Of a DNA stretch of 21,537 nucleotides, positions 6,117 through 20,918 are shown one piece after another. The DNA is taken from positions 1 through 21,537 of IMG/VR virus record IMGVR_UViG_3300027736_000281. One strand, given 5' to 3'. The notes beneath the pieces were generated by a model. The model worked only from the letters and a program-made list of their open reading frames with translations, was not told where the DNA came from and ran no database searches. A program made the translations under genes and the position numbers. Source of the stretch: a virus. Every line of letters starts with the position of its first letter. Position 1 is the first letter of the stretch.

Positions 6117-6701
6117 ATGGCTGTATCAATTAACGGAACAACGGGTATATCAACACCAGCAATAACTGGAATGACTACTCCATTAACTGTAGCTCAAGGT
6201 GGAATAGGAGCAACTACATTAGCTGGAGCTAACATTCCTGTAACCAATGCTGCAACATCATATACTGCAACTCAAACATTTAATGGATCAACAAGTGTAT
6301 TAGCGGCTGTTTTTGCTAATGCTGCAGAAACTACAACAATTTCAGCGACAGCTGCAGCGAGCACTATTCAATATGATGTAACTACACAGTCTGTTCTTTA
6401 TTATACAACAAGTGCTTCAGGTAATTTTACTATGAACTTTAGAGGCTCAAGTGGCACATCATTAAATACTGCTATGGCTACAGGTCAAACAGTAACGGTA
6501 GTGTTTTTATGTACTAATGGTGCTACAGCTTATTATAATAATGCAGTAACAGTAGATGGCACATCTGTTACACCTAAATATCAAGGTGGATCAGCATGGA
6601 CATCTGGTAATGTTTCTGGAATAGATGCTTATTCATATACCATTATTAAAACAGGATCTGCTGCATTTACAGTACTAGCTGCACAAACTCAATTTAAGTA
6701 A
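6117..6701 (+). CDS. Fibre or head-fibre protein sharing its C-terminal domain with the tail fibre at 18445
   Basis: A 194-residue protein. Residues 1-45 are a fibre-type leader (AVSINGTTGI, then AQGGIGATTL, akin to the NGGTGATTL motifs in the preceding gene). Residues 53-179 form a beta-rich domain with YDVTTQSVLYYTTSAS, ATAYYNNAVTVDGTSV and AWTSGNVSG. The same domain ends the fibre encoded at 18445-19437, with 94 of 127 positions identical by my hand alignment. A domain of this kind at a fibre end is likely a trimerising or receptor-binding tip. The start has a good AAAGGAA ribosome site eight bases upstream. It lies in the head module, so it may form a capsid-surface fibre with the previous protein (inference). 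Confidence 0.78.
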   Translation: MAVSINGTTGISTPAITGMTTPLTVAQGGIGATTLAGANIPVTNAATSYTATQTFNGSTSVLAAVFANAAETTTISATAAASTIQYDVTTQSVLYYTTSASGNFTMNFRGSSGTSLNTAMATGQTVTVVFLCTNGATAYYNNAVTVDGTSVTPKYQGGSAWTSGNVSGIDAYSYTIIKTGSAAFTVLAAQTQFK

Positions 6702-11685: not shown

Positions 11686-12066
11686 ATGGATAACTACAAT
11701 TTAAAGTTAGCACAATTATTACAAGGCGCACAACCATCACAAGGTGGATTAAGCGTAGGTGATTATCCTAATCCTTATGGATTAAGAGCATATCAAAAAC
11801 CTAATGGTACTTATGGCGGTCAAATGATGCCTAAGACTACAGGATGGCAAGGTGTTCATAAAAACTCACAAGGTCAAGATATGACAGAATTTTCTATTGG
11901 TGATAATAAAGGTGATTTTCCATCTATTGTTCCTACATTAAATGCAAATGAATTAGCTCAAATTGTTCAAAAGCAAAACATTACACCATCTGCTAAACAA
12001 AAAGCACAAGAATTTGCAGATTTAAGAAGGTCACAAGGATTAAGTCCATTTAAGGATTATAATTAA
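11686..12066 (+). CDS. Short virion-associated protein with a conserved phage module
   Basis: A 126-residue protein. Residues 1-50 are Gln/Gly/Tyr-rich and probably flexible. Residues 50-123 form a compact module with GWQGVHKNSQGQDMTEFS, FPSIVPTLNANELAQ and a closing RRSQGLSPFKD. The same pattern ('G-G...tE-s-g......PslVPtL-..E...........A...A..R...G-spF') occurs in many phages, alone or fused to other structural proteins, and its role is not known to me. It begins two bases after the adaptor stop and its stop overlaps the hub start in TAATG, so the three are likely translated together. Confidence 0.75.
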   Translation: MDNYNLKLAQLLQGAQPSQGGLSVGDYPNPYGLRAYQKPNGTYGGQMMPKTTGWQGVHKNSQGQDMTEFSIGDNKGDFPSIVPTLNANELAQIVQKQNITPSAKQKAQEFADLRRSQGLSPFKDYN

Positions 12067-13592
12067 TGTTTCTAGTAAAAAAACAATCGTCAGGAAGCGT
12101 ATCATTACCAGCACCGGTAGGCGGATGGAACGCTAGAGATAGTTTAAGTGATATGCCTGCAACAGATGCAGTCTATCTTACAAACTGGTTTCCTGCTACT
12201 ACAGAGCTTGTCCTAAGAAACGGATATACTCAATGGGCTACAGGATTACCTGCGCAAGTAGATACTCTTATGAATTACCAAAGTGGTACATCTGGTAAAC
12301 TTTTAGCTATATCTAATGGTGCTGTTTATAATGTTACTAATGGTGGTGCAGTAGGTGCTGCATTATTATCAGGATTATCTAATTCACGTTGGCAATATTG
12401 TAATATTACTACTGCTGGTGGATCATTTTTATACATGGCTAATGGTATAAATACACCTTATATCTATGATGGTACAACATGGACATCTATTACAGGTATA
12501 AGTACTCCTGCTATTACAGGCGTTACTACTACTACATTAAATAATCCTATTGTATTTAAAAATAGAGTATTTTTTACACAAACTAACACATTAAAAATAT
12601 GGTATTTACCTACATTATCTTTAGGCGGACTTGCTAAATCATTAGATTTAAGTTCTTTTGCTTATAAAGGTGGAAATATTGTACAACATGCTACATGGAC
12701 AATAGATGCAGGTTATGGTGTAGATGATTACTATGCTATTTATACATCTAAAGGCCAAGTAGTCGTATATAAAGGTTCAGATCCAGATAATGATTTTGCT
12801 TTAGCAGGTGTATGGGATTTAGGAACACCAGTAGGCACTCGTTGCATGTATAAATATGGTGGTGATTTACTATTATTAGGTAAAGATGGTCTTACACCAT
12901 TAGCATCAGAGTTACAATCATCTAGGCTTGATCCTAGAGTAGCTATTACAGACAAAATACAATGGGCTGTATCAGAAGCTATTTCTAGTTATGGTTCTGT
13001 TTTTGGATGGCAAATATTGTTTTATCCAGAAGAAAATCAATTATGGTTAAACGTACCTAATACTACACAAACTACGCAATATGCTATGAACACCATTACT
13101 ACAAATTGGTGTAATTACACAGGATGGAACGCTACTTGTTGGGAATTATATAACGATCAACCTTATTTTGGTGGCAATGGTTATGTAGGTCGTGCATGGT
13201 ACACAAACTCAGATAATAATAGCAATATTACTGCTAACGCATTACAAGCATTTTCATCATTTAGTAGTCCAGGCGAATTAAAGCGTTTTACAATGGCTAA
13301 ACCCATTTTTAGAACATCTGGAAGCCCTGCTATTTATGCAAATATAAATGTTGATTTTAACTTAGCTATTCCTACTACAATACTTAATTATACGCCCACA
13401 TCATCAGGAACATGGGATAATGCTTTATGGGATACAGGTATGTGGGGCGGTGGATTAAATGTATTGCAGCAATGGCAAGGTGTTAATGGCGTTGGCTATT
13501 ATGGTGCGCCTATTGTAAGTACAGCATCACAAGGAATAGATGTAAGATGGGTTTCAACAGATTTAGTACTTGAAAAGGGTGCAGTTCTATAA
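12066..13592 (+). CDS. Tail hub protein, P22 gp10-like (DNA stabilisation)
   Basis: A 508-residue beta-rich protein, close in size to P22 gp10 (472), which seals the neck below gp4 and holds packaged DNA. The N-terminal segment LPAPVGGWNARDSLSDMP followed by AVYLTNWFPATTELVLRNGY at 15-52 is typical of this family in podoviruses. The remainder has repeated strands with turn motifs such as GGSFLYMANG, GLTPLASELQSSRLDP and a C-terminal Trp-rich set of segments (WDNALWDTGMWGGGL). The gene follows the gp4-like adaptor, the P22 order. Its last codons overlap the open frame of the next gene at 13589-13592. The family call rests on N-terminal pattern, length and order and not on a search. Confidence 0.75.
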   Translation: MFLVKKQSSGSVSLPAPVGGWNARDSLSDMPATDAVYLTNWFPATTELVLRNGYTQWATGLPAQVDTLMNYQSGTSGKLLAISNGAVYNVTNGGAVGAALLSGLSNSRWQYCNITTAGGSFLYMANGINTPYIYDGTTWTSITGISTPAITGVTTTTLNNPIVFKNRVFFTQTNTLKIWYLPTLSLGGLAKSLDLSSFAYKGGNIVQHATWTIDAGYGVDDYYAIYTSKGQVVVYKGSDPDNDFALAGVWDLGTPVGTRCMYKYGGDLLLLGKDGLTPLASELQSSRLDPRVAITDKIQWAVSEAISSYGSVFGWQILFYPEENQLWLNVPNTTQTTQYAMNTITTNWCNYTGWNATCWELYNDQPYFGGNGYVGRAWYTNSDNNSNITANALQAFSSFSSPGELKRFTMAKPIFRTSGSPAIYANINVDFNLAIPTTILNYTPTSSGTWDNALWDTGMWGGGLNVLQQWQGVNGVGYYGAPIVSTASQGIDVRWVSTDLVLEKGAVL

Positions 13593-14014
13593 TAGTTCAA
13601 GGACAAAATGTAGGAGAATGGGTTTGCCAAGAAGCTGGCGGATCATGGACTTCTATTTGCCAAGCCATAGGACAAACTTACAATAACAAAATAATAGTAG
13701 GTGTGATGTATGATGGTTATACAGGATCAAGTATAGCTATCCACTCAAGATGTGACAATCCACGTCATGTATCACGTCACTTCTATTTTTCAATATTTGA
13801 TTATCCGTTTAATACATTACAAGTAAAACAGTTAAAAGGGTTAGTATCTACAGCTAACCTAAAAGCTCAAAAAGTAAATGAACATTTAGGATTTAAGCGA
13901 GAAGCATTGCTTAAAGACTATTTCCCAGATGGAGATGGTATTGTTTATACCATGTCTAAAGATGAATGTAAGTGGTTAAAACTTAAAGATAGATATATAA
14001 AGGACAAAGTATGA
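13589..14014 (+). CDS. GNAT-family N-acetyltransferase without a visible standard start codon
   Basis: The frame is open from 13574 (TGA at 13571) to 14014 and reads IIVQGQNVGEWVCQEAGGSW..., then KIIVGVMYDGYTGSSIAIH, FSIFDYPFNTLQVKQLKGLV, ANLKAQKVNEHLGFKREALL and YFPDGDGIVYTM. This is a complete small acetyltransferase of about 141 residues; the 'N--A-----e-LGF' segment is the usual GNAT helix for acetyl-CoA. The first standard start, GTG 13703 or ATG 13706, would drop the first 38 or 39 residues, including the first strand and helix. No ATG, GTG or TTG lies between 13574 and 13703. ATA codons at 13589 and 13592 stand exactly where an overlap start with the hub gene is expected. I therefore place the start there, as a non-standard or mutated start. 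The substrate is unknown. The stop overlaps the next ATG (ATGA). Confidence 0.78.
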   Translation: MIVQGQNVGEWVCQEAGGSWTSICQAIGQTYNNKIIVGVMYDGYTGSSIAIHSRCDNPRHVSRHFYFSIFDYPFNTLQVKQLKGLVSTANLKAQKVNEHLGFKREALLKDYFPDGDGIVYTMSKDECKWLKLKDRYIKDKV

Positions 14015-14895
14015 AATTGTTAGATTTTAAATGGTTAATGCCAGCGTTAAATGATTATTTTACATTTTATGGCGGAGGTAAGGGCGGATCTGCTCCACCA
14101 CCACCAGATTATGCTGGTGCTGCAACTGCAACTGCTGCTGGTAACTTAGAAGCTGCTAGAGCAACTGCTGCTGCAAACCGTACAAATCAAGTTACACCTT
14201 ATGGTAATTTAACATACACAGCTAATCCTGGTACTGATCCATACGGTAACACTTTATATACTGCTACACAAACATTAGCACCTGAGCAACAAGGTATTCT
14301 AAAATCCACTAATACCCTTAATCAGGGATTAATGGATACAGCTAATACAGGTTTAAATTATGCTAATACTGTATTAAGCCAACCTGGTATAGATACATCC
14401 AAATTAGCTCAAACAGGTATCAATCCTGGTCAATCATACCAAGATGCTATCATGTCAAGACTTTCACCACAAATTGATCGTGAAAATGCTGCATTAGAGC
14501 AACAATTAGCCAATAGAGGTATTGCTGCTGGTACAGATGCTTATAATCAAGCTAAAACATTACAAGCTCAAAAACAAAATGATTTACTTAATAGTGCTAC
14601 AGTTACTGGTATGAATACAGGTCTTGCAGCTAATCAACAAGGATTTCAACAAGCTGCTTATAATCAAATGCAACCTATTAACGTCATTAACGCATTACGC
14701 ACAGGATCTCAAGTACAAAATCCTAACTTTACAAGTACACCTATGCAAGCTAACACAGCAGGCCCAGATTTACTTGGTGCGGCTAATGCAAGTTATCAAA
14801 ATCAACTTAATGCTTACAATGCTCAACAAGCTCAACAAGGTGGATTTATGGGTGGTTTAATGAGTCTTGGAGGTTCTGCAATAACAGCATACTAA
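14011..14895 (+). CDS. Putative internal virion (DNA ejection) protein
   Basis: A 294-residue protein rich in Ala, Gln, Asn and Thr. The opening hydrophobic/aromatic stretch (LDFKWLMPALNDYFTFYGGG) leads to a Pro run and DYAGAATATAAGNLEAARA, followed by QVTPYGNLTYT and QTLAPEQQGILKS. The middle, about 100-215, is helical (SRLSPQIDRENAALEQQLANRG). The end is GGFMGGLMSLGGSAI, a Gly-rich hydrophobic tail. This order, 'PPPP-DYA', 'VTPYGNLTY' and 'LAPEQQ', is common in podovirus proteins encoded after the tail hub, which are held to be ejected with the DNA. It overlaps the GNAT gene by four bases (ATGA) and the next gene by one (TAATG). Confidence 0.72.
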   Translation: MKLLDFKWLMPALNDYFTFYGGGKGGSAPPPPDYAGAATATAAGNLEAARATAAANRTNQVTPYGNLTYTANPGTDPYGNTLYTATQTLAPEQQGILKSTNTLNQGLMDTANTGLNYANTVLSQPGIDTSKLAQTGINPGQSYQDAIMSRLSPQIDRENAALEQQLANRGIAAGTDAYNQAKTLQAQKQNDLLNSATVTGMNTGLAANQQGFQQAAYNQMQPINVINALRTGSQVQNPNFTSTPMQANTAGPDLLGAANASYQNQLNAYNAQQAQQGGFMGGLMSLGGSAITAY

Positions 14896-15581
14896 TGTTT
14901 GCTATAGCATTTAGTGGTGGTAAAGATTCATGGGCTTGTTTGCAGTTATACAAAGACCAGCTCAAAGATATTACTGTTTTATGGGTAAATACAGGTAAAA
15001 ATTTCCCAGAGTTGCTAGACAGTATTAATTTAGCAAAAGAAATGTGTCCTAACTTTATTGAAATAAATACAGATAGAGATGCACAAAATGCTATATATGG
15101 CATACCTTCTGATATTGTTCCCTGTGCTAATACAGCTTATGGTGAAACAGTTACAGGAAAAGTAAAACAAAAGATACAACCATATTTTCAATGTTGTTAT
15201 GAAAACATAGCCAAACCTTTGCATGATAAAGCAAAAGAAATTGGTGTAACACACATGATTCGTGGTGACAGAAAAGATGAAGGCCATGTATCTAATAGAG
15301 TTAATGGTCAATTAGTAGATGGCATAATACAAATTCATCCACTTGAAAATATGACAAAACAAAATGTATTAGATTATCTTGCTACAGTAATGGATATGCC
15401 AAAACACTTTGATTTTGAACATAGCTCTTTAGATTGCTATGATTGCTCTGCATATTTAAAAGATACAAAAGATATTGCTGAATGGGCTAAAGTTACCCAT
15501 CCTGATTTATATAAACAACGAATGAATAAAGTAATACAAATTAAAGAAATTTTAACAAATAGTATGAAAGATGCTTTTTAG
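14895..15581 (+). CDS. PP-loop ATPase of the PAPS/APS reductase family with Fe-S cysteine signature
   Basis: A 228-residue enzyme. SGGKDSW at 7-13 is the PP-loop that binds ATP or adenosine phosphosulphate; LWVNTGKNFPELLD at 29-42, IRGDRKDEG at 122-130 and HPLENMTKQNVLDYL at 148-162 are the other family blocks. Cys100-Cys101 and CYDC at 181-184 form CC-X79-CxxC, the [4Fe-4S] ligand pattern of assimilatory APS reductases. The terminal catalytic Cys motif (ECGLH type) is missing: no Cys follows residue 184. So it probably does not complete sulphate reduction and may be a cluster-containing adenylating enzyme, for example for thiolation of nucleic acid; this is inference. It lies among ejection-type genes, overlapping the previous stop by one base. 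Confidence 0.85.
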   Translation: MFAIAFSGGKDSWACLQLYKDQLKDITVLWVNTGKNFPELLDSINLAKEMCPNFIEINTDRDAQNAIYGIPSDIVPCANTAYGETVTGKVKQKIQPYFQCCYENIAKPLHDKAKEIGVTHMIRGDRKDEGHVSNRVNGQLVDGIIQIHPLENMTKQNVLDYLATVMDMPKHFDFEHSSLDCYDCSAYLKDTKDIAEWAKVTHPDLYKQRMNKVIQIKEILTNSMKDAF

Positions 15582-15589
15582 GAGATAAC

Positions 15590-16534
15590 ATGGCATTTAT
15601 GGACTTTTTACCGCAATTTGGGGATAACACAGATCAATCTGGAGTAGATGATCCAAATTTAGCTCAAATTAATCTTAAACGCAAACTTGCTTTAGCTGAT
15701 TCTTTACGCAATACAAAAATGCCACAAGGTCAAATGGTAGGCGATAGATATGTAGCTCCTTCTTGGACTCAATATCTTGCTGGTGCAGTAAATCAAGGCA
15801 TGGCTGGTATGAATGAAAAAGAAGCTATGAAAGAATATAGTGATGTTCAAAAAGCTAAAGAAGCTAAACAACGTACTGGTTTAGCTACATTATTAAGTGA
15901 TTTAGCTCCAAAATTTATAGATAAAACTACAATGCAACCTACAAATGTAGATTTGCAACAAGGGATGAATGTTCCTACATCACCTTATAATACTACTGAA
16001 CAAGTAAGTGCAACATCACCATATCAAACACAAAATATGCAAGGTCAAAGTAATATGATGCAACCAGTTACAACACAAGTACCTGGACAACCATTGTCAA
16101 GAAATGATATTTTAGGTGCTGTAACAAGATATGGTCAAACTGTTGGTGATAATAAAATAGGTGAAGGTGCTATTTTAGATTATGTAAAACAAGCTTATGG
16201 CCCTAAAAAAGCTACATGGATTAATAATGGAAATTTACAAATTCAAGTAGATGAAGCAGGACAGCCTACAGGATTAACATTACCTATAGGCGTTTCTCCT
16301 AATACAACTCTTACATTAGAACAATCTGGCAAACAACATAAAATTGAAAATGAATTTAAAAAAGAACAAATAGCAATAGAAAAGAAAAAACTTAATCCAT
16401 TAGGGCTTCCAGATTTATCTACACCAACAACAAAACCATTAACAAATAATAAAGGATGGACATTACATACTGATGCTCAAGGCAATCAAGCTTATGTTAG
16501 CCCAGACGGTAAACAATTTGAGGAAACTAAATAA
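15590..16534 (+). CDS. Putative internal virion protein
   Basis: A 314-residue soluble protein. The N-terminal third is helical with KRKLALADSLRNTKMPQGQ, RYVAPSWTQYLAGAVNQG and a Lys/Glu/Ala helix (MNEKEAMKEYSDVQKAKEAKQ); the start resembles internal virion proteins of podoviruses, where 'R--lA-aL------P-Gqmv----va-s--q-la' precedes a long helix. The centre (about 115-180) is a Gln/Asn/Thr/Pro-rich linker. The end carries a charged helix (HKIENEFKKEQIAIEKKK) and the terminal module GWTLHTDAQGNQAYVSPDG, common in such proteins. The ribosome site TAGGAG contains the stop of the previous gene. The stop overlaps the next start (TAATG). A role in the ejected complex is inferred from order and composition. 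Confidence 0.72.
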   Translation: MAFMDFLPQFGDNTDQSGVDDPNLAQINLKRKLALADSLRNTKMPQGQMVGDRYVAPSWTQYLAGAVNQGMAGMNEKEAMKEYSDVQKAKEAKQRTGLATLLSDLAPKFIDKTTMQPTNVDLQQGMNVPTSPYNTTEQVSATSPYQTQNMQGQSNMMQPVTTQVPGQPLSRNDILGAVTRYGQTVGDNKIGEGAILDYVKQAYGPKKATWINNGNLQIQVDEAGQPTGLTLPIGVSPNTTLTLEQSGKQHKIENEFKKEQIAIEKKKLNPLGLPDLSTPTTKPLTNNKGWTLHTDAQGNQAYVSPDGKQFEETK

Positions 16535-17401: not shown

Positions 17402-18445
17402 ATGGGATGGCAAGACGCACCAGTTAAAAACGCATGGGAACAAGCTCCTACAATCAAACCAGGCCTTGATCCACAAACAAATGCACCTTATGATCCGTCT
17501 ATTCCTACGAATATGACATTACAAAGCAATAGAACTGCTGCACCTTATAATTCAAGTTTAATGGACAAAATTGGCAATGCTTGGGATGCAAGTAAACTAG
17601 AAGGTTTAGCACCAGAAGTATATCCTATTGGCGGTCTTACTAAAACACCAATGATAGAAAAAGGTAAAGTTGCAGCAGAAACAATAGCTAGTGATATTAA
17701 AGGTTCAGAAACTGCACAAAAATTAGCTGCTTTATTAAGCAAATCTGGTAATTTTATTGGATCAATTCCTAATAGACTATTATCGTTTGAATCGGGAAAA
17801 GATCCTGAAGCATTTAATACTATCTATCAAGCGTATAAGCAAGATATTCCTGAATTAAAAAAAGCTATTAGTGAAGCTACCCCATTAGGCAAACAATTGT
17901 ACAACGATATGGTTTATAACTATACAAGAAAACTTCAAGTGCCACATGATGTAGCAATACTTGCAGAAGATTATACAAAAGGACATCCTGAAGGATTAGG
18001 TGCTTGGGATTTATTGGCTCAACATTATAAAGATTTACCTGGAGATATGGCAGCAGCAATTAAAAGAACAACAATGCCTTCTTATAAACCTTTTGAACAA
18101 TTAACTGACGCTGAAAAATTAAAACAAGCTACACAAGCTAGTGTTGATACTGCGGTATGGAATCCAAAACCACCTAGCACAGGTCAAGGAATATCTGCTG
18201 GAGATTTATGGACTATTGGGAAAAAAATTGGTTTACCATTACTTACACATAATCCACTCATAGCCGCAACAGCTTCACCTAGAGTTGCTCGTTTAGCAGC
18301 TATGTTAGCAGGTAAAACTGCAAATGTTGGCGGTAAAATTAGTGATGCAGCTACAAATATAGTAAATATGTTGCCTGAAGCATCATTGGAAAACATAATA
18401 AATACAGCAATACTAACTAATAAAGCAAACAAGGAGCAACAATAA
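17402..18445 (+). CDS. Putative internal virion or ejection protein, function unknown
   Basis: A 347-residue protein that I cannot place in a named family. The N-terminus repeats a small motif (WQDAPVKNAWEQAP), which occurs often at the start of phage ejection proteins. The centre is helical with FESGKDPEAFNTIYQAYKQ and a mix of charged and Ala residues. A more hydrophobic stretch at about 275-302 (KIGLPLLTHNPLIAATA then ARLAAMLAG) could insert into a membrane, as expected for a channel-forming ejection protein, but it is weak. The gene follows the other ejection-type genes, has AAGGA upstream, and overlaps the tail fibre start by one base (TAATG), so it is probably the last of this block. 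Confidence 0.68.
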   Translation: MGWQDAPVKNAWEQAPTIKPGLDPQTNAPYDPSIPTNMTLQSNRTAAPYNSSLMDKIGNAWDASKLEGLAPEVYPIGGLTKTPMIEKGKVAAETIASDIKGSETAQKLAALLSKSGNFIGSIPNRLLSFESGKDPEAFNTIYQAYKQDIPELKKAISEATPLGKQLYNDMVYNYTRKLQVPHDVAILAEDYTKGHPEGLGAWDLLAQHYKDLPGDMAAAIKRTTMPSYKPFEQLTDAEKLKQATQASVDTAVWNPKPPSTGQGISAGDLWTIGKKIGLPLLTHNPLIAATASPRVARLAAMLAGKTANVGGKISDAATNIVNMLPEASLENIINTAILTNKANKEQQ

Positions 18446-19437
18446 TGGCAAGAAATGGATCAGGAACATATACGCTTCCAGCCGGAAATCCAGTAGTCAC
18501 AGGAACTACTATATCATCTACATGGGCTAACAATACTTTAAATGATATTGGAAATGCTGTGACAGCATCTCTTGCTTATGATGGACAAACTGTGCCTGTT
18601 GCTAATTTACCTATGGGTGGATTTATTCACACAGGTGTAGGTAACGCTACTGTTAGAACTAATTATGCGTCTGCTGGACAAGTTCAAGATGGAACATTAT
18701 CTTATCTTACTGGCATATCTGGTACAGACACAATTATTGCTACAGCACCTGTTTCTATGACCGCTTTAGCTGCTGGTCAAACATTTAGATTTATTGCGGC
18801 AGGCGCAAATACCACTACAAGCGTTACACTAAATATTAATAGTATTGGTGCTAAGGCTATTACTAAAAATGGCACTACTGCACTAGCTATTGGTGATATT
18901 GTATCTGGTTCTATTATAGAAGTAACTTATGATGGCACAGAATTTCAAATATCTAGCCAAGTTTCAGTATCACTTTTAGGTTTAAATAATACATGGACTG
19001 GTAAACAAACATTTACAGGTACATCTAGCCTTCTTGCATCTAAATTTATTAATGCTATAGAAGGCGTTACAGTATCTGCTACTGCAGCTACAAGTACTAT
19101 AAACTATGATGTTACAACGCAATCTGTATTATACTATACAACATCTGCAAGCTCTAATTGGACTGTAAATTTTAGAGCTTCTAGTGGAACAACTTTAAAT
19201 TCAGCATTAGCTATTGGAGAATCAATTACAGTTGTATTTTTAGTAGCACAAGGTGCAACAGCATATTATAATAATGCTATTACTATAGATGGTACATCAG
19301 TTACACCGTTATATCAAGGAGGAACTGCTTGGACATCTGGAAATGTTTCAGGCGTAGATGCTTATTCTTATACTATTGTAAAAACAGCATCAACTCCAAC
19401 ATATTCTGTATTCACATCACAAATTCAATTTAAATAG
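18445..19437 (+). CDS. Tail fibre protein
   Basis: A 330-residue fibre. Residues 1-82 (ARNGSGTYTLPAGNPVVTG, TTISSTWANNTLNDI, NLPMGGFIHTGV) are the well-known N-terminal module that anchors podovirus fibres to the tail. Residues 83-172 form a second module (SYLTGISGTDTIIATAP, GQTFRFIAAGANTTTS, AKAITKNGTTALAIGD). Residues 188-314 repeat the beta-rich domain of the protein at 6117-6701, sharing 94 of 127 positions by hand alignment, and probably form the distal tip. The start overlaps the previous stop (TAATG). A glycine-rich adhesin gene follows ten bases later, so the two may make one fibre. Receptor unknown. Confidence 0.88.
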   Translation: MARNGSGTYTLPAGNPVVTGTTISSTWANNTLNDIGNAVTASLAYDGQTVPVANLPMGGFIHTGVGNATVRTNYASAGQVQDGTLSYLTGISGTDTIIATAPVSMTALAAGQTFRFIAAGANTTTSVTLNINSIGAKAITKNGTTALAIGDIVSGSIIEVTYDGTEFQISSQVSVSLLGLNNTWTGKQTFTGTSSLLASKFINAIEGVTVSATAATSTINYDVTTQSVLYYTTSASSNWTVNFRASSGTTLNSALAIGESITVVFLVAQGATAYYNNAITIDGTSVTPLYQGGTAWTSGNVSGVDAYSYTIVKTASTPTYSVFTSQIQFK

Positions 19438-19446
19438 GAATTAATT

Positions 19447-20316
19447 ATGCCATTATTGTCAAGATTAGCTGTAAATGCAGCTAAAGGTTATGGAATGTTT
19501 GGTAAAGGTTTTGATGGTACTATTTCTTACCTAGTTGTAGCTGGTGGTGCTGGAGGTGCTAATGCAATAGCTGGTGGTGGCGGTGCTGGTGGCTTTAGAA
19601 ATGGCACGGCTACATTAACAAAAGGAAATGTTTATACAACCACAGTAGGATTAGGTGGTGCTGGAGCTCCCTCATCATCTTTTGTAAGAGGAACTAATGG
19701 TGCTGATTCAGTATTATCAGGAACTGGAATTACAACCATAACATCAACAGGTGGTGGTGGAGGTGGTAGTTCTTATGGTGGATTCTCTGGAGCTTCTGGA
19801 GGTTCAGGTGGAGGTGGAGGCGCACAAGGAGGACCACCACTAACTGCTGGCGGTGCAGGTAATACACCTTCTACAAGCCCATCTCAAGGTAATAATGGTG
19901 GGCCTGCTCAAGATTCAGCTTCAGGTGGCGGTGGAGGTGGAGCTAATGCAGTTGGTGTTAGAAGTGGTGGAGCAGGAACAGCTTCATCTATTACAGGTTC
20001 AAGTGTAACTTATGCTGGCGGTGGTGGTGCTGGAGCAAGAACTGATTTAGGTGGAACTGCTGGTTCTGGCGGTGCTGGTGGTGGCGGTAATGGTGGTAGT
20101 GGTACTAGCGGTTCAGCAGGCACAGCTAACACAGGTGGCGGTGGAGGTGGTGGTGGTTATGGTGTAGACACTGGCGGTGCTGGTGGTAGCGGAGTTGTTA
20201 TTATTTCTATTGCGACAAGTGCATATTCAGGCACATCTACAGGAAGCCCTACTATAACAACATCAGGTGCTAACACTATTATTAAATTTACAGGATCGGG
20301 AACTTATACTGCTTAA
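19447..20316 (+). CDS. Glycine-rich tail fibre tip or adhesin
   Basis: A 289-residue protein with Gly runs at about 43-46, 102-107, 121-125, 160-165, 191-194, 211-214 and 230-237. The pattern begins with SYLVVAGGAGGAN at 27-39 and closes with GGAGGSGVVIISIATS at 243-258, the frame of glycine-rich phage fibre domains thought to pack as polyglycine-II helices, as in the known adhesin of phage S16. A last strand segment IIKFTGSGTYTA ends the protein. The likely role is host recognition at the fibre end. AGGAA upstream gives a ribosome site. The DNA is much richer in G than the surroundings because of Gly codons. The stop overlaps the oxygenase start in TAATG. Confidence 0.83.
   Translation: MPLLSRLAVNAAKGYGMFGKGFDGTISYLVVAGGAGGANAIAGGGGAGGFRNGTATLTKGNVYTTTVGLGGAGAPSSSFVRGTNGADSVLSGTGITTITSTGGGGGGSSYGGFSGASGGSGGGGGAQGGPPLTAGGAGNTPSTSPSQGNNGGPAQDSASGGGGGGANAVGVRSGGAGTASSITGSSVTYAGGGGAGARTDLGGTAGSGGAGGGGNGGSGTSGSAGTANTGGGGGGGGYGVDTGGAGGSGVVIISIATSAYSGTSTGSPTITTSGANTIIKFTGSGTYTA
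19746..20182 (+). repeat. Low-complexity GGN-rich DNA in the adhesin gene
   Basis: Runs of GGT, GGA and GGC codons give many GG pairs on the + strand, densest near 19750-19830, 19924-19945 and 20137-20182. It stands out from the AT-rich surroundings. Such codon runs can change length by slippage or unequal recombination, which would vary the adhesin. No exact long tandem unit is present. Confidence 0.7.
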
Positions 20317-20918
20317 TGGTAAAAAAATTAACACAAAAAACTAATGCTAGTTGGGCATTTGAAGTAGAAAAAACTAATGCGTGGGCATATTGGGATAAAG
20401 CTTTTACTCCAGAAGAATGTCAAAAGATTATTAATTATGCAAATCAGTTTAAGAAAATAGATGCTAAAGTGTCTAATAAAATTGAACTTAATCTTGAAAT
20501 TAGAGAAAGCAAAGTTGTATGGATAACACCTGATTCTGATATTAATTGGGTATATCAACGTATGACTGATGTTATTACAAAACTTAATGTTGATTACTTT
20601 AACTTTGATTTGTTTGGTTTTACAGAAAGCTTTCAATTTACAGAATATGAAGCACCAAGCGGACACTATAGTAAACATATAGACAGTATATTTAACGGAA
20701 TAGTAAGAAAGCTATCATTTGTATTACAATTATCAGACCCTAAAGATTATGAAGGTGGTGAACTACAAATTCATTTAGGCGATACTCCTGAAGTAATGAA
20801 GAAAGAACAAGGAACGTTAATTGCATTTCCTTCATTTACATTACACCAAGTTACACCTATTACAGAAGGCAAACGTTATTCATTAGTAGGTTGGATTACA
20901 GGCAAACCATTTAAATAA
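20316..20918 (+). CDS. 2-oxoglutarate/Fe(II)-dependent oxygenase, prolyl-hydroxylase-like
   Basis: A 200-residue enzyme. Iron ligands are the HxD pair H121-x-D123 (in SGHYSKHIDS) and H177 (in SFTLHQVTP); R187 in GKRYSLVGW should bind the 2-oxoglutarate carboxylate. DYEGGELQIHLG at 144-155 is the usual strand between them. These motifs fit the prolyl 4-hydroxylase / PKHD group, which couples oxidation of 2-oxoglutarate to hydroxylation of a protein or other substrate. The N-terminal AFTPEECQKIINYANQF is the common entry helix. All key residues are present, so it should be active. The gene overlaps the adhesin stop by one base (TAATG), which suggests a fibre protein as substrate, but this is inference; a host substrate is an alternative. 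Confidence 0.88.
   Translation: MVKKLTQKTNASWAFEVEKTNAWAYWDKAFTPEECQKIINYANQFKKIDAKVSNKIELNLEIRESKVVWITPDSDINWVYQRMTDVITKLNVDYFNFDLFGFTESFQFTEYEAPSGHYSKHIDSIFNGIVRKLSFVLQLSDPKDYEGGELQIHLGDTPEVMKKEQGTLIAFPSFTLHQVTPITEGKRYSLVGWITGKPFK

Follow-up and report, generated by a model that had tools for sequence, protein, structure and literature searches.

A phage PP-loop protein with a predicted CC...CxxC cluster site is probably misnamed as a PAPS reductase

The PAPS reductase label carried by a family of phage genes is probably wrong. In the window, by which we mean the whole stretch of DNA analysed, a complete viral-contig record of 21,537 bases, one such gene encodes a PP-loop ATP-pyrophosphatase-like protein (Table 1), and we conclude that this enzyme is very probably not a sulphonucleotide reductase. 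The explanation that we favour as a whole, and to which we give an even chance, is a stand-alone, late PP-loop ATP pyrophosphatase that has a [4Fe-4S] site, does not reduce APS or PAPS, and perhaps acts on RNA. Sequences of this family were already on deposit under the name PAPS reductase, and what we add is a different reading of a known gene. Its signature, namely an intact PP-loop, CC without the lysine that usually follows, CxxC[TS]A[YFW] and an HP tail, marks the family as a distinct variant. It is routine to tally phage 'cysH' genes as auxiliary sulphate-assimilation genes; for this family, with no fewer than 312 loci in a single viral collection, three separate diagnostic features contradict such a role.

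Motifs and conservation of the PP-loop family

The window protein contains cysteines at residues 15, 51, 77, 100, 101, 181 and 184. It matches PF01507 above the curated cut-off (E = 2.9e-14; Pfam), and has both the SGGxDS loop and the fold of that PP-loop superfamily. The coordinates and strand of the ORF given by an earlier, sequence-only reading are exact, as are its motifs SGGKDS, RGDRKDE and CC-X79-CxxC, and its observation that no cysteine lies beyond residue 184 is true of this protein.

Table 1. Positions in the window of the PP-loop gene, its motifs and its neighbours.
Feature	Position	Strand	Remarks
GNAT acetyltransferase (phrog_4470), near-core neighbour	13589..14014	+	full length needs a non-AUG start
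Ejection-type virion protein (phrog_6121), upstream	14011..14895	+	TAA overlaps the PP-loop ATG by one base (TAATG)
PP-loop ATP-pyrophosphatase-like protein with CC...CxxC four-cysteine cluster site, usually labelled PAPS reductase	14895..15581	+	228 aa
PP-loop SGGKDS, residues 7-12	14913..14930	+	invariant except K/R at position 10
CC (C100, C101), predicted [4Fe-4S] ligands, then N104-I105	15192..15197	+	
RGDRKDE, residues 123-129	15261..15281	+	consensus across the family RGQRxDE
CxxC (C181, C184), predicted [4Fe-4S] ligands	15435..15446	+	
Helical C-terminal tail (W197, K199, HP202-203)	15447..15578	+	like the SspD and PRK13795 tails, without ECGLH
Ejection-module protein, downstream	15590..16534	+	

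We compared 93 distinct full-length homologues drawn from viral contigs, species genomes, phage records and plasmids; in a ten-sequence sample of these, identity to the window protein ranged from 22 to 77%. C100, C101, C181 and C184 are present without exception (93/93), with 77-82 residues separating CC from CxxC, an arrangement that conforms to the CC-X~80-CxxC ligand pattern of assimilatory APS reductases. C15, C51 and C77 are variable, and SGG[KR]DS is present in every homologue. The median dN/dS of the gene is 0.072 across 567 moderately close pairs, indicative of purifying selection, and together with the invariance of the four cysteines this places their pattern far beyond chance.

That the terminal cysteine is missing, as the sequence-only reading had it, holds insofar as the catalytic-cysteine motif of CysH, ECG[LI]H, occurs in 0/93 homologues, but 46/93 do carry a single cysteine in the tail. 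In 37/93 (~40%) this residue lies within the final six positions (e.g., 'NCDA', 'DCNE') of a tail that runs 48-52 residues beyond CxxC. Across the 93 homologues the C-terminal cysteine occupies no fixed column and never stands in an ECGLH-like context, and it is missing from the window protein, its nearest relatives and the Lessieviruses. The trait changes 5 times on the family tree, having been gained several times, and it is lineage-specific. The number of changes and the lack of a fixed column led us to reject it as a conserved replacement nucleophile. One homologue, from a Comamonas thiooxydans plasmid-phage (L009:5443-6702), has an additional N-terminal ~180 aa annotated 'methyltransferase type 11', in which no Pfam domain was found; this protein may be fused to a methyltransferase-like domain.

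Relation to other PP-loop enzymes

Phylogenetic analysis (IQ-TREE) recovered the family as one clade with 100/100 support, separate from APS reductases, CysD, SspD, DndC and PRK13795-like proteins. HHalign found the PRK13795-like proteins to be closest (E = 2.7e-28), with an alignment that extends through the tail, followed by two CysH-like proteins without the nucleophile tail (3.4e-20), CysD (1e-14; alignment stops before CxxC), SspD (1.7e-12; the tail beyond CxxC aligns too), APS reductase (1.3e-11; alignment ends near CxxC) and, as the most distant profile, DndC (E = 3e-6; alignment stops short of CxxC). Many CysH-like NCBIfam models match far below their cut-offs, PRK13795 first, and the DndC model TIGR03183 is not among the matches at E <= 1. 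The window protein scores 35.9 bits against the curated PRK13795 model, whose cut-off is 588, and 228 residues leave no space for the PUA and Fer4 domains of PRK13795, a model that NCBIfam itself names 'hypothetical protein'. The RNA-binding PUA domain was found in three scanned PRK13795-like proteins (L104, L119 and L113), and ferredoxin domains in most. The PADLOC SspD model matches residues 4-209 at E = 9.1e-8, as against 1e-91 to 1e-137 for true SspD, and in HMMER searches some CysH models outscore it on the window protein. CysH-like proteins from Desulfofundulus (L105:5896-6576) and an Anaerolineales bacterium (L129), combine SGGKDS and the APS-reductase cysteine set with no ECGLH end, and their group may be another set of misnamed reductases.

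The AF2 model of the window protein (pLDDT 94, pTM 0.89) agrees with the predicted viral structure A0A6J7WEP5 (TM 0.90). A PDB search with this model returned APS reductase 2goy first (TM about 0.48) and then other PP-loop enzymes; because TM is about 0.4-0.5 for all PDB matches, the fold is that of the superfamily and offers no choice of function. CysD, QueC, LarE, GMP synthetase and FAD synthase are among the fold and profile neighbours, as would be expected of an ATP pyrophosphatase for a small molecule or nucleotide (compare CysD, QueC, LarE and FAD synthase), such as a host-defence signalling nucleotide, and not for nucleic acids. We consider this unlikely, as most such families leave four invariant cysteines at CysH-type spacing unexplained, and the CysD alignment gives out before the second cysteine pair is reached.

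The CysH proteins used for comparison, which were taken from bacterial genomes, have degenerate loops (ASSLAAED(M), VSSFGAES(A)) in place of a phosphate-binding one, a CCGIRKVEPL-type motif and a KECGLH tail. The phage family, by comparison, keeps SGG[KR]DS throughout. A lysine three residues before a conserved proline is kept in CysH (CCGIRKVEPL), SspD (WCTRQLKLLPF), DndC (WCTDRMKIQP) and PRK13795-like proteins (WCCKVTKLGP). The lysine after CC contacts sulphate in APS reductase. In 86/93 phage homologues this column, I105 in the window protein, is I, V or L. It is the absence of ECGLH, the intact ATP-pyrophosphatase loop and the loss of the active-site lysine, taken together, that argue against sulphate reduction, and they bear out the earlier judgement that it is the poorer fit. 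The lack of a catalytic cysteine is less unusual than the same reading implied, since PRK13795-like proteins share CC/CxxC without ECGLH. An archaeal PRK08557-type protein is reportedly a PAPS reductase, and if it does reduce PAPS, an intact PP-loop would not by itself suffice to exclude reduction.

The protein might still be a true though divergent APS or PAPS reductase, encoded by an auxiliary sulphate-assimilation gene and drawing its nucleophile from another cysteine or a partner protein. Such an enzyme would be in keeping with the PF01507 match, with the first fold match being 2goy and its matching CC/CxxC layout, and with the C-terminal cysteine of 37/93 homologues, and homologues in phages JC1 and CSP3 have been published as PAPS reductases. 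A role in sulphate assimilation is assumed, without experiment, in both the JC1 and the CSP3 paper, and the literature found on the function of the family consists of annotation-level statements. We regard this alternative as decidedly unlikely: ECGLH is found in 0/93 homologues, the C-terminal cysteine is unconserved in position and missing from the window protein and the Lessieviruses, the active-site lysine is substituted in 86/93, the ATP loop is intact in contrast to the CysH proteins compared, and thioredoxin was not found in ten phage records.

Gene neighbourhood and partner genes

The gene had been described as lying among ejection-type genes, and this is so: an ejection-type virion gene precedes it and ejection-module genes follow. 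In 63/71 loci having that neighbour, its start codon shares one base with the stop codon before it (-1 overlap), and in divergent members (Lessievirus, Chromobacterium, Caballeronia and a spring-water phage) the upstream gene again encodes a virion/DNA-ejection protein, belonging to phrog_8003 or phrog_4287. Pairwise identities of the PP-loop gene parallel those of neighbouring core virion genes (rho 0.83-0.90). We rejected the idea of a moron gained recently from a host and carrying a promoter of its own, given the 63/71 start-stop overlaps and a divergence that follows the core genes.

Among 57 control loci picked by their gp10-like protein alone, 6 contain the PP-loop gene. Near relatives without it (L200-L209) have gp10-like proteins 74-92% identical and the same ejection protein; in L209, a homologue of the downstream ejection-module gene directly follows the upstream virion gene after a gap of about 12 bases, and no copy of the PP-loop gene is present elsewhere in its 33-kb record. 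Missing as it is from close relatives, the PP-loop gene is optional cargo with a fixed slot in ejection modules. That slot (14895-15590 in the window) is occupied by the unrelated phrog_7839 in two relatives (L200:3375-3671 and L240:4776-5084) and empty in many, and, with small cargo that differs from one relative to another, it has the behaviour of a slot for accessory genes within a late operon.

The GNAT gene is found one gene upstream in 68/80 carrier loci with sufficient upstream sequence, and in 48/57 control loci, mostly without the PP-loop gene. As it is common whether or not the PP-loop gene is present, GNAT is simply near-core and the link between the two is unspecific; a functional module of GNAT and PP-loop enzyme was rejected on these frequencies (48/57 versus 6/57). 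The GNAT ORF attains its full length from an ATA/ATT codon close to 13589, where the gp10-like gene ends; standard gene callers place its start at GTG 13703, with loss of the N-terminal quarter. The gp10-like protein (12066-13592) is an 'amidase' (lysis) according to PHROG 5107, its MW202711 counterpart is named phage stabilization protein, and its position together with that name suggests that it is structural. A 2OG-Fe(II) oxygenase (20316-20918; PF13640, phrog_61) adjoins tail-fibre-like and glycine-rich genes, and could hydroxylate a virion protein. The virion-associated proteins encoded at 6117-6701 and 18445-19437 have C-terminal parts that are near copies (VTVVFLCTNGATAYYNNAVTVDGTSVTPKYQGG / ITVVFLVAQGATAYYNNAITIDGTSVTPLYQGG), which suggests a duplicated domain at two sites.

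Given this neighbourhood, the enzyme might instead modify the upstream-encoded ejection protein or another virion protein, perhaps in an adenylation-driven reaction, for genome delivery in some hosts. We think this very unlikely. The start-stop overlap with the preceding virion gene at 63/71 loci, the ejection or virion gene upstream in divergent members too, and the GNAT enzyme on the other side of the ejection gene are consistent with such a role; however, L200-L209 have the same ejection protein and no PP-loop gene, the pairing with GNAT is unspecific, and gene position may reflect late expression only. The sequence-only reading had further speculated that the protein enters the cell with DNA. 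Mass spectrometry of CsCl-purified JC1 virions detected gp64, gp67, gp68 and gp69, and gp63 (GNAT) and gp65, the PP-loop homologue, do not appear in the virion table (PMC9144972). With gp65 missing and its neighbours gp64, gp67 and gp68 present (PMC9144972), entry is not supported, although this is one proteomics data set and absence from it is not proof.

Neither a cysteine desulphurase (Aminotran_5) nor a thioredoxin family member was found in ten phage records, among them three complete phages as well as partial contigs, and no Dnd/Ssp genes are annotated in BcepIL02. When all ORFs of 7 carriers and 10 non-carriers were compared, only the PP-loop gene was common to all carriers and the next-best carrier-only ORFs were common to 3 of 7; we therefore rejected a co-travelling partner gene. 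The lack of a tracking gene, desulphurase, thioredoxin or Dnd/Ssp gene implies that the enzyme works by itself or together with proteins of the host. The desulphurase and nearby partner genes that mark a Dnd/Ssp system were not seen, within a scope limited by the partial contigs, and it is unlikely that the phages encode such a system for phosphorothioation.

Phosphorothioation, or another thiolation of phage DNA in the fashion of DndC/SspD that would shield it against host nucleases, is highly improbable: the SspD model does match residues 4-209 (about 9e-8) and the tails beyond CxxC do align, but SspD has one cysteine (WCT) where the family has CC and keeps the lysine, DndC is the most distant profile, no desulphurase occurs in the ten records and no gene tracks with carriers (7 versus 10 non-carriers), and BcepIL02 is without an annotated Dnd/Ssp gene. 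A nucleic-acid substrate as in phosphorothioation had been tentatively suggested for the enzyme; the nucleic acid is still favoured, given the PUA domains of the nearest cellular relatives, and the Dnd/Ssp-like chemistry is not, with DndC and SspD both farther away than PRK13795 and neither a desulphurase (ten records) nor a tracking gene to accompany it.

Proposed mechanism and comparison with known systems

The reading that we prefer, a stand-alone PP-loop ATP pyrophosphatase, would operate as follows. The gene would be translated late, together with the ejection protein of a P22/Bcep22-like podovirus. Its product would not reduce APS or PAPS; it would bind ATP, adenylate its substrate and release PPi, with a predicted CysH-type four-cysteine [4Fe-4S] cluster that either holds the active site or handles sulphur; the reaction would be completed by a nucleophile or sulphur donor from the host. 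RNA would be the likeliest substrate class, subject to thiolation or a similar change. Distant kinship with the PUA-containing PRK13795 proteins is what points to RNA, and that the enzyme acts on it is a tentative suggestion that may well not hold. We rate as somewhat unlikely the more specific proposal of a phage-specific [4Fe-4S] PP-loop family, made with ejection proteins, that carries out an adenylation-dependent, possibly sulphur, modification of RNA or the ejection protein by lysine-independent chemistry. Were modification of RNA or of a virion protein true, the gene would have a phage-host or delivery function for which clean natural plus/minus pairs exist.

Among known systems, the [4Fe-4S] tRNA thiolases TtuA and TtcA are also cluster-using PP-loop enzymes, with weak fold and profile matches to the phage family and a sequence match confined to the surroundings of the PP-loop. 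TtuA clusters have three cysteine ligands, compared with four conserved cysteines in the phage family. SspD and DndC share the intact PP-loop and CxxC, and SspD also has a similar tail; they differ in having a single cysteine in place of CC, in keeping the lysine, and in belonging to multi-gene systems with a desulphurase, of which there is no sign here. APS/PAPS reductases (CysH, 2goy) have in common with the family the fold, CC-X~80-CxxC and an NTG..PE motif, but their degenerate PP-loop, the RK ahead of the PL motif and ECGLH are all absent from the phage proteins.

The archaeal and clostridial PRK13795/PRK08557 proteins resemble the phage family in their intact SGGKDS, CC, CxxC, HP-type tail and lack of ECGLH; they differ in having kept the lysine that follows CC and in bearing PUA and ferredoxin domains besides the catalytic domain, which is all that the phage protein has. 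The Lessievirus 'PAPS reductases' (BcepIL02 gp67 and JC1 gp65; PHROG 424) are full-length homologues with 30-32% identity and the same four cysteines. Their genes stand where the window gene does, one gene past GNAT and behind the gene for an ejection-type virion protein; apart from sequence divergence, the only difference is the family to which that virion protein belongs.
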